NCBI GenBank assembly: GCA_948144175.1
Contig: CANXME010001279.1
Coordinates: forward strand, 124,001 to 188,000
DNA length: 64,000 nucleotides
Direction of reading: 5' to 3'
From: Closterium sp. NIES-65
Taxonomy: Eukaryota; Streptophyta; Zygnematophyceae; Desmidiales; Closteriaceae
How positions within the stretch are numbered: the first letter of the stretch is position 1; each line of letters opens with the position of its first letter. Positions 16,411 to 21,929 of the stretch are shown here, piece by piece. Under the pieces are notes generated by a model that searched no databases, was not told the DNA's origin, and was given only the letters and a program-made list of their open reading frames with translations. A program made the translations under genes and the position numbers.

Positions 16411-19400
16411 ATGGCATCCGCATCTGCGTCCCTCCTTCAGAAGGCCTTCCTCGCCGGATCCCCCCTGAAACTCTCCGCGACTTCCGGCACCGCTCTCGCA
16501 GCCACCAATGTCTCCCTCGCAGCGCCATTCCGCAAGACCACAGCCGTCCGGGCCATGTCCGGAAGCCACGTCGGCGAGATCGCGAGCGTCAAGGCCCGTC
16601 AGATCATCGACAGCCGCGGGAATCCGACGGTGGAGGTTGATCTGACGACGTCCAAGTCCAGCACCGTGTACCGCGCCGCCGTCCCTAGCGGCGCGTCGAC
16701 GGGGATCTACGAGGCACTGGAGCTGCGCGATGGAGATAAGAGCAAGTTCGGCGGGAAGGGCGTGCTCAAGGCCGTTGCGAACATCAACAACATCATTGCT
16801 CCCTCGCTGATCGGCCTCGACCCGAGGTAATGCAGACGGTATTTCCTAGTGTTTTTATTTTGAAGGATTAACAAACATTGAGATTGTACTACCAGAATGC
16901 CGGAGGCAGCAATGCGAGTGTCAAATCTTCCTCCGCCAATTTCAGCTCTCGTGTCAAAACTCTCGTCATGCATGACCAGACTTGCCTCATCCGTATCCTC
17001 CCTCCGCCTGATTCCTGCAGCTCTCGACAGCACGTCCAAATCAAATCTGATCGCGTCTCATTGTCCTAGGCACCTCAAACACATCACATTTCGTCGTGTT
17101 CCTTCCCACCCCGGGGACCAGCGCGCCATGGAAGTGCACATGCTCGAGCTCCACGGCACGCCCAACAAGTCGCCTCGTGTTCCCACGCGCCTCAATCCGT
17201 TCAACCCTTCCCTGTGTCCTCTGCCTTTCCGCCCTTCCATTCCCCCCTATCAGGGATCAGCGCGCCATCGACGCGCTGATGCTCGAGCTCGACGGCACGC
17301 CCAACAAGTCGTCGCTCGGCGCCAACGCCATTCTCGGCGTCTCCCTCGCCGTCGCGCACGCCGGCGCTGCTGGCAACGCGGTCCCGCTCTACAGGTATGC
17401 TCCGCTATATGGCCTAGGCTCGCTCCGCTATAAGCTCCAGCCGTCATGCCCGTACCCGCCATTACGAGCCTATGCCGTCATCATCAGCGGCGCTCACTCT
17501 GCTCGTCTTCCTCGTCAATCGCCTCTCGAAGAATCGTCCACTCGCTCCTTCTCACCCGTACCTCCCCAGGCATGTCGCCTCCCTGGCGGGCGTGGGGAGG
17601 ATGGTCATACCCGTGCCCGCCATGGATGCCATCAACGCATTTCCTTCCTCCCTCTTCCGTTTCCTCCCCTTTTCCCCAGGCAGTAGTGGAGAAGCTGACC
17701 ATGCCCGTGCCCTCCACGAACGTCATCAGCGCATTCCCATCCCCCCTTCTCAACCTCTTCCCTCATTCCTCTTCTCCTTCCCGTCCTCAACCCCCCAGGC
17801 ACCTGGCCTCTCTGGCAGGAGTCGAGAAGCTGATCATGCCCGTGCCCGTCATGAACGTCATCAACGGCGCTCACGCTGCTCTCCCCCGCGTCCCTGCTCC
17901 CCTTCCCCTCTCCCCCGCATCCCTGCTCCCCTTCCCCTCCATCCCCCGCTTCCCCAGGCATCTCGCCTCCCTGGCAGGAGTGGAGACGCTGATCATGCCC
18001 GTGCCCGCCATGAACGTCATCAACGGCGGCAGCCACGCGGGCAACAAGCTGGCGATGCAGGAGTTCATGATCCTCCCCACTGGCGCCTCGTCCTTCTCCG
18101 AGGCGATCCAGATGGGATGCGAAGGTGAGATAAACGCGGTCTAAGAAGCAGTGAAGGGGACGGACCAGAGTCACTCCAGCCACGCGGGCAACAAGCTGGC
18201 CATGCAGGAGTTCATAATCCTCCCCACTGGCGGATTCGTCCTTTTCCGAGGCCATTCAGATGGGGTACGAAGGTGAGAAGGGCGGTCTGATAAGAAAGTG
18301 AAGGCAATCGGATAAGCAGTAATGGGGACACACTAGTGGCAGTCACGCGGGCGACGAAGGGAGGTTTGCGCCCAACATTCAAGCACCCCTTCCTCCCACC
18401 TCCCCCCGTCGACCTCGCTTCCCCAACCCTCCCCCTGTGTATCAAGTCCTGAAGGGCATCATCAAGAAGCGGTACGGGCAGGTCGCGTGCAACGTGTGGC
18501 ATCACTTAACTCCGTATCCTCAGCTTACCTCCTCTTTTCCTGCCTCCTTGCCCGTGGCTCCTTGCCCATTGCCCCTCCACTCCCGCACCGCCCCCCTCCC
18601 CCCAACTCCCCCAGTGTACCAGGTGCTGAAGGGCATCATCAAGAAGCGGTACGGGCAGGACGCGTGCAACGTGGGCGACGAGGGCGGGTTTGCGCCCAAC
18701 ATTCAGGACAACAAGGAGGGGCTGATTCTGCTGGTGGACGCGATTGACAAGGCGGGATACACTGGCAAGGTGAGGGGGCGTAGGGGGGACAAGGTGAACG
18801 GATGAAGATTGGCAAGGTGAGGAGGGAAGAGGGACCTTAAAGCCCAACATTCAGGACAACAAGGAGCGGCTGGTGCTGCTGGTTGATGCCATCGATAAGG
18901 CGGGGTACACTGGCAAGGTGAGGGGAGGAATGAGGGAGAAGGGGACCTTAAAGCCGAACATTCAGGACAACAAGGAGGGGCTGATTCTGCTGGTGGATGC
19001 TATTGATAAGGCGGGTTACACTGGCAAGGTGAGGAATGCACGGGCAAGGTGAGGGGGGAAGCAGGGAACTTAAGTCCCAACATTCAGGACAACAAGTAGG
19101 GGCTCGTACTGCTGGTTGATGCTATTGGCAAGGCGGGGTACCCTGGCAAGGTGAGGGGGTGACTCTTTTTCTGCATGCAAAGTGGGTGATGCAAGGTGAA
19201 GGGTGCAAGGGTAAGGTGAAGGCATGCACCTACCCTCCGCACTCACCTACCCAGTCCACAGAGCACAGAGCACACAGCACAGAGCACAGAGCACAGAGCA
19301 CAGCACAAATTACGACCACTGAGTTCCACACCCCGGACCACAAGTGCGACCTCTACACTTCCTACACTTCCTACAGAACTCCGTTTCCACCCACCTCCAC

Positions 19401-21929: not shown

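Follow-up and report, generated by a model that had tools for sequence, protein, structure and literature searches.

The introns of an enolase gene in this stretch of DNA are lined with partial copies of the exon edges that they adjoin, which raises the question of how such copies arise, and whether they are used. The window, meaning the whole stretch of 64,000 nucleotides that was analysed, corresponds to C1276:124001-188000 within an 874-Mb assembly of 2,400 contigs.

The enolase gene and its intronic exon copies

The gene is located at 16411-21929 on the positive strand and consists of eight exons (16411-16826, 17254-17394, 17958-18124, 18615-18769, 19977-20294, 20642-20788, 21605-21655 and 21861-21929) encoding 488 aa, as assigned from its open spliced frame, GT-AG introns and match to solved enolases. 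All introns are GT-AG and the spliced frame contains no internal stops; a prior sequence-only reading had claimed that the exons join in phase, and the spliced translation, open across all 488 residues, bears this out. Solved enolases match the mature part of the protein across query residues 8-437 of 439, the best solved relative being chain 7n6g_6G, presumably from Chlamydomonas, and the N-terminal extension suggests a plastid-type enzyme. There are no Ns in the region 16400-21950 or elsewhere in the window. The window also contains retrotransposon genes at 2174-6341 on the negative strand (RVT_2 and copia-type gag) and at 49590-51467 on the positive strand (RVT_1 with RNase H, presumably Gypsy-like), a weak RVT_1 match below cut-off at 61485-62087 on the positive strand, and GC-rich minisatellites with similar units at 8995-9428, 40617-41079, 48231-48821 and 58147-58711. 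A dispersed repeat of approximately 300 bp was noted by eye 3′ of both enolase genes considered here, at window positions 22180-22480 and at L009:7510-7850.

An echo is defined here as a partial copy of an exon within an intron, identified in enolase by blastn of the eight exons against the gene's own introns. This search produced 20 plus-strand exon matches and no minus-strand matches, and the same search of the enolase exons against 100 first-order Markov intron sets gave no echoes in any set. Exon 2 has a single echo, of its nucleotides (nt) 1-58, at 17115-17172 (+; 88% identity), in which the acceptor AG is missing (CGG). Exon 3 is preceded by copies of nt 36-54 at 17444-17462 (+; 95% over 19 nt), nt 1-68 at 17570-17637 (+; 84%), nt 12-68 at 17675-17731 (+; 88%) and nt 1-71 at 17799-17869 (+; 92%), and is followed by a copy of nt 73-167 with the donor at 18177-18272 (+; 90%), the intron part of which is homologous too. 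Upstream of exon 4 lie copies of nt 55-91 at 18345-18381 (+; 89%) and nt 1-59 at 18438-18496 (+; 93%), the latter also lacking the acceptor AG (CTG), and downstream of it are three copies that retain the donor: nt 80-155 at 18842-18917 (+; 88%, intron part homologous), nt 80-155 at 18953-19028 (+; 93%, with all five differences at third positions) and nt 81-155 at 19076-19150 (+; 87%, containing a stop).

The echoes of exon 5 are all upstream of it, comprising nt 29-62 at 19319-19352 (+; 88%), a composite at 19542-19615 (+) of nt 1-29 (97%) followed from 19563 by nt 72-125 (80%), nt 1-84 at 19673-19756 (+; 93%, with six synonymous and no nonsynonymous differences) and nt 1-88 at 19829-19916 (+; 92%). 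Exon 6 is preceded by a copy of nt 2-53 at 20520-20571 (+; 88%) and followed by nt 54-147 at 20891-20984 (+; 88%), which lies in a 195-bp tandem array, has a homologous intron part and ends in a donor with one G fewer than that of the exon, by nt 60-147 with the donor at 21097-21182 (+; 85%) and by nt 53-95 without the donor at 21256-21297 (+; 79%). Together the echoes tile exons 3, 4 and 6 almost completely (166 of 167, 155 of 155 and 146 of 147 nt, respectively) and exons 2 and 5 in part (58 of 141 and 125 of 318 nt), while blastn detected no echoes of exons 1, 7 and 8 in the gene's own introns. The partial same-strand copies reported by the sequence-only reading are therefore real, with coordinates correct to within a few bases, and three interior pieces that it overlooked (17444, 18345 and 19563) can be added. 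Its rule that upstream copies carry the acceptor and downstream copies the donor describes the geometry broadly, however it is not absolute because five of the 20 echoes (17444, 18345, 19319, 19563 and 21256) come from the exon interior and include no splice site.

Occurrence in other genes and relation to intron length

The pattern had been described for enolase, where it is confirmed; since it is also found in most of the genes examined, it is not enolase-specific. Within the window, repeat pairs, translations and Pfam identify a gene for HMG-CoA lyase with six exon-edge echoes at 11259-14002 on the negative strand, its repeat pairs being 11259-11438/11429-11597, 11611-11966/11836-12179, 12247-12316/12394-12463, 12682-12814/12840-12972 and 13652-13824/13836-14002. 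Pfam HMGL-like matches, weak in an earlier scan, lie above cut-off at window positions 11553-11723, 12852-12992 and 13309-13536.

A chaperonin family search of the assembly returned 93 exon matches, which appear to represent about 11 genes, most of them on two contigs. Exon-edge echoes are present in seven of the eight chaperonin genes examined, in a sample made up of these eight genes and the second contig of one of them. Three loci (L030-L032) had been picked since their family matches already showed echoes; among the five not picked in that way (L033-L037), four have echoes (L033, L034, L035 and L037) and no echo was found in L036. Inverted repeat pairs number only 0-3 per chaperonin locus. 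The youngest exon-edge array found, shared by L030:4611-6038 (C1794) and L038 (C43), contains approximately 12 copies, 99% alike, of a 124-bp unit composed of the acceptor, the first 60 nt of the exon and intron sequence. These two contigs carry the same chaperonin gene and are 99.6% identical, with 7 substitutions and 4 indels in 7.5 kb, a pair too similar for rate measurement.

Echoes are absent from the second, probably cytosolic, enolase gene, whose ten introns are all short (103-214 nt). Among five aldehyde dehydrogenase exons examined, drawn from 12 matches, echoes occur in L040 and, over 36 nt, in L042; another exon contains a short tandem repeat within itself, and the remaining two show no echo. 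A further aldehyde dehydrogenase match, of 456 positions at C1051:4192871-4194283, lies in an intronless open frame of 712 codons and differs in this from the other matches listed, which align as single exons. Duplications other than minisatellites amount to 106 pairs in 51 kb across ten gene loci, with 49 pairs in 24 kb in the five chaperonin loci not picked for echoes, versus 41 pairs in 200 kb along contigs (20 stretches of 10 kb spread on five long contigs), a per-base rate approximately ten times lower in the contig stretches than in the gene loci.

The presence of echoes follows intron length. In a set of 31 cleanly delimited introns, whose flanking exons are contiguous in the protein, all 17 introns of at least 343 nt contain an echo and none of the 14 introns of 285 nt or less does so, ten of these 14 belonging to the second enolase gene. 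Exon pairs between which the protein match was interrupted were excluded from this set, one L030 exon pair gave no splice model, and the low-scoring splice models of the first introns of L033 and L035 were retained. Echoes account for much of the intron lengthening seen here, with the caution that each echo adds length itself.

Wholly intronic duplications are scarce, at about one versus about 50 echoes in a hand count of the 31-intron set. In a neutral simulation, random duplications of the observed sizes were generated and damaging ones removed, using hand-set values for unit, exon and final intron lengths and for the detection factor (0.6); ancestral introns of 110-145 nt gave 4-13% detectable intron-only duplications. 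The simulated fit to the observed scarcity (n = 50) is comfortable at ancestral introns of about 110 nt, marginal at 145 nt, the intron size found in the second enolase gene (P 0.01-0.1, the value being 0.1, or 0.01 under the splice-signal rule), and fails at 180-220 nt (P 3e-3 to 6e-7). Duplication targeted to splice sites is unneeded if ancestral introns were about 110 nt long, doubtful at 145 nt and still needed at 180-220 nt.

Geometry, divergence and origin of the echoes

The 85 echo alignments comprise 46 upstream and 39 downstream of their exon. Of the upstream ones, 40 extend to the exon start (30 of 36 if the ten copies of the young array are removed) and none to the exon end; of the downstream ones, 31 extend to the exon end and none to the start. 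Chaperonin exon ends were taken as family-match limits or modelled splice sites, with a tolerance of 12 nt. No echo is a complete cassette exon, because none of the 85 reaches both exon ends. Duplicated units are mostly 110-225 bp long and cluster near 150 bp, a length for which nucleosomes or Okazaki fragments were considered as a conceivable cause. Duplication of a segment spanning an exon border produces exactly this geometry, because the copy joined to the remaining exon keeps working, and no selection on the echoes is required.

The favoured explanation, considered probable but with only modest confidence, is that the echoes are duplications of approximately 110-225 bp produced by break repair across exon borders, neutral and without a function of their own. 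A DNA break in or beside an exon would be followed by local re-synthesis and end joining, and this repair would leave a second copy of a segment of that size across one exon-intron border. Where the segment lies over an acceptor, the outer copy would pass into the intron and the inner copy would stay joined to the remaining exon, with the mirror case applying to a donor. Border duplications would spare the message, making them neutral and allowing them to accumulate and lengthen introns; duplications within an exon or of an entire exon would be purged, and existing copies could seed arrays through unequal exchange. Repeated tandem duplication across exon-intron borders was also the interpretation offered by the sequence-only reading, and it is partly supported, being the best simple reading and the best fit to the geometry, though incomplete, as it leaves unexplained the synonymous bias of the divergence and the unrecognisable intron parts described below. 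The lack of echoes in the second enolase gene and in L036 also weighs against it.

Exon-echo differences in the 85 pairs number 125, 110 and 444 at codon positions 1, 2 and 3, and comprise 430 synonymous changes, 242 nonsynonymous changes and 3 stops. In 75 of the echoes, the ten copies of the young L030 array being excluded, the divergence is 0.249 at fourfold and 0.054 at zero-fold sites, a ratio of 0.22 (bootstrap over exons 0.175-0.277; 0.28 for enolase alone), whereas neutral decay of a dead copy of a constrained exon is expected to give about 0.5, a value that is the authors' own expectation rather than a published criterion. The ratio is 0.14-0.17 for echoes of at least 88% identity and 0.35 for the most diverged. 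Base composition was rejected as the source of the synonymous excess, as the ratio remains below 0.5 for every exon base separately, and exon and echo are equal in fourfold-site GC (88 versus 90 reciprocal changes). Rapid synonymous change on the exon lineage only was likewise rejected, the echo-echo ratio still being 0.31, and 0.12 in three apparent sister pairs, although this control is confounded by exon-lineage changes. Echo identities spanning 79% to 100% indicate a long-running process, and the young array indicates that it has also been active recently.

The intron part of the duplicated unit is recognisable in 6 of 29 near-exon echoes (four in enolase and two in the L030 array) and unrecognisable in the other 23, of which 13 have an exon part at least 90% identical, in a test of low power at fourfold divergence above approximately 0.2 or in pyrimidine-rich introns. 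The duplicated piece therefore often appears to end at the splice site; one L033 echo extends nine bases beyond the donor and then ends. Units that are tandem with their intron part included are found downstream of enolase exons 3, 4 and 6 and in the 124-bp array of L030. Upstream and downstream echoes of the same exon also tend to abut: they meet within 10 nt in 6 of 17 two-sided exons (shuffled mean 1.9, P 0.006), compiled by hand with the nearest or longest echo taken on each side, and in 6 of 10 short exons (P 0.015), however a 30-nt criterion applied to the ten short exons is not significant (8 of 10, mean 6.1, P 0.17). In enolase, the halves abut at nt 71/73 of exon 3 and nt 53/54 of exon 6.

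These observations bear on the main rival explanation, in which a break within an exon captures a homologous exon, together with half of each flanking intron, from a gene copy that has diverged but still works (an allele, a sister lineage or a lost homoeologue). The captured exon would then take over, and the interrupted old exon would persist as two halves, one forming the upstream and the other the downstream echo. The synonymous bias, the unrecognisable intron part and the abutment would all follow from such an exchange, and the near-complete tiling of exons 3, 4 and 6 by abutting halves, the coding-like divergence with equal fourfold-site GC and the unrelated intron flanks are consistent with it. 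Against this, abutment within 10 nt is lacking in 11 of the 17 two-sided exons and, for the ten short exons, the 30-nt criterion carries no significance; exons 2 and 5 have one-sided echoes only, C1794 and C43, which carry the same gene, are separated by only 11 events in 7.5 kb, and plain tandem arrays occur too. In a genome search with window positions 16400-18400, hits outside the region were limited to fragments of the second enolase gene and short pyrimidine-rich stretches, with no diverged source copy for enolase exons 1-3; collapsed paralogues, named in the sequence-only reading as a possible source of the pattern, are made unlikely by this search for exons 1-3. Because no source copy was found for these exons and simple tandem arrays exist, exon capture is retained as the main rival, though an unlikely one. 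The broader proposition that exons here have repeatedly been replaced from within, each time by a complete homologous exon of a diverged working copy, is doubtful to a slightly greater degree. Some echoes may derive from a diverged working copy. If repeated replacement were true, the long introns would preserve successive exon replacements like fossils, and synonymous divergence would date them.

The same divergence could be read as a sign that the echoes are used, as alternative acceptors or donors, decoy exons or splicing regulators under selection. Their zero-fold divergence is low, and the zero-fold/fourfold ratio is lower still in echoes without a frameshift (0.19 versus 0.29 with one); only 3 stops occur in the 85 pairs, and by eye many echoes keep the AG or GT. 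However, 26 of 29 indels in echoes shift the frame, indicating that many echoes are not under coding constraint now, 19 of the 85 echoes are affected, and none is a complete cassette exon. In addition, eight echoes of low fourfold divergence without a recognisable intron part are near neutral (approximately 10/110 fourfold versus 15/387 zero-fold sites), although their choice by eye for low fourfold divergence biases the ratio upward. Use of the echoes is accordingly regarded as improbable.

Palindromic mini-elements represent another process of local duplication in this genome. The core they share, TTTTGAG-NNNN-CTCAAAA, is found at 30,327 exact genome sites versus 4 for a reversed control, and 13,080 sites have the centre TCGA (control 0); the outer arms vary and are for the most part self-complementary. 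Centres are mostly self-complementary (TCGA, ACGT, GCGC and AATT), two of the three in L037 being imperfect, and some sites lie in arrays of period 37-77. Local examples are located at L033:535-552, 1850-1867 and 2925-3019, L034:2244-2261, L037:2257-2274, 2560-2577 and 3525-3542, L032:3862-3879, L039:2047-2064 and L003:2794-2811. They distantly resemble the palindromic repeats of Volvox organelle DNA, as those are described in the accessible part of PMC2670323. The echoes could be attributed to these elements if an insertion of 20-46 bp left a long direct repeat of host sequence and old elements lost their palindrome: 8 of 12 distinct local palindromes lie between direct repeats of 26-63 bp (92-100% identity, one repeat being itself mostly palindrome), and one lies inside an exon echo of the chaperonin locus L034. 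This origin is judged very improbable, as palindromes are absent at the junctions of young echoes (L033 258/398, L034 1781/2021 and the L030 arrays) and none occurs within the 64-kb window, so that the enolase echoes in their present form are not due to them.

Least credible of all is an assembly artefact, either stutter or the interleaving of two diverged haplotypes, as might be suspected from unit lengths of approximately 150 bp that resemble short-read lengths and from the many chaperonin matches paired on two contigs: the enolase echoes are 3-21% diverged with several divergence levels per exon, the window has no Ns, and C1794 and C43 share an identical set of echoes plus the array, whose presence in two separate contigs argues against the stutter against which the sequence-only reading had advised a check and rules it out for L030/L038, the one testable gene.

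Duplication across exon borders, as favoured here, would provide a route for intron lengthening without transposons. The conserved exon serves as a yardstick, by which small duplications stay recognisable after purely intronic ones would have faded, and a single genome could then show at what rate and size break repair operates within genes, and from which template. Should the coding-like divergence be confirmed, diverged gene copies would be serving as a source for the repair. In genomes of this kind, gene finders may also report alternative exons that are not real.

Comparison with known systems

The AGGT model describes intron gain by tandem duplication. The echoes resemble this process in that a tandem duplication touches coding sequence and splice sites, and differ from it in that present introns are lengthened rather than created. 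Its signature, an intron start like the downstream exon and an intron end like the upstream exon, was not found in the echoes: those of a downstream exon precede its acceptor and carry its start, and those of an upstream exon follow its donor and carry its end. Intron gain through tandem genomic duplication is described for the potato RdRp gene in the accessible part of PMC4974935, and intron origins are reviewed in PMC3488318, likewise available in part. In open-literature titles and abstract openings, a coverage that takes in few subscription papers, no account of exon-edge echoes as a general intron feature was found.

Tandem exon duplication, including mutually exclusive exons, also places exon-derived sequence within neighbouring introns, however it involves whole exons, to judge from the accessible part of PMC9013439; the echoes are partial, contain at most one exon end and always the outer half, are in some cases frameshifted, and include no complete extra exon with both splice sites among the 85. 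Introns of plant MSH1 likewise contain fragments of exons from the same gene, for example Vanilla intron 14, and these partial gene duplications are multi-exon blocks (PMC10487979, portion available). The echoes, unlike these blocks, are exon-edge pieces of approximately 50-220 nt and are present in all 17 long introns delimited here.

The closest likeness is to small tandem duplications made by patch or break repair in rice and mammals, as far as the available portions of the two sources extend. In rice, tandem duplications are the commonest insertions, are enriched at 50-200 bp, become rare above about 125-200 bp and are ascribed to adjacent-nick repair, with Vaughn and Bennetzen 2014 and Schiml 2016 cited there (PMC7971508), and for mouse and human cells it has been shown that small tandem duplications can arise through break repair involving CST-Pol alpha (PMC8355091). 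Like these, the echoes are copies of tens of bp up to about 200 bp, made locally and in direct orientation on the same strand, and they enlarge the genome; the local, direct orientation expected of small tandem duplications is seen in all enolase matches (20 plus, 0 minus). The rice fall-off above about 125-200 bp counts against plain duplication, because the echo units are of that size class. The echoes differ further from the rice and mammalian cases, as these are presented in the accessible text, in being dense in genes at exon borders, mostly 110-225 bp in size and of many divergence levels, in their synonymous-biased differences, and in an intron part that is often unrecognisable.
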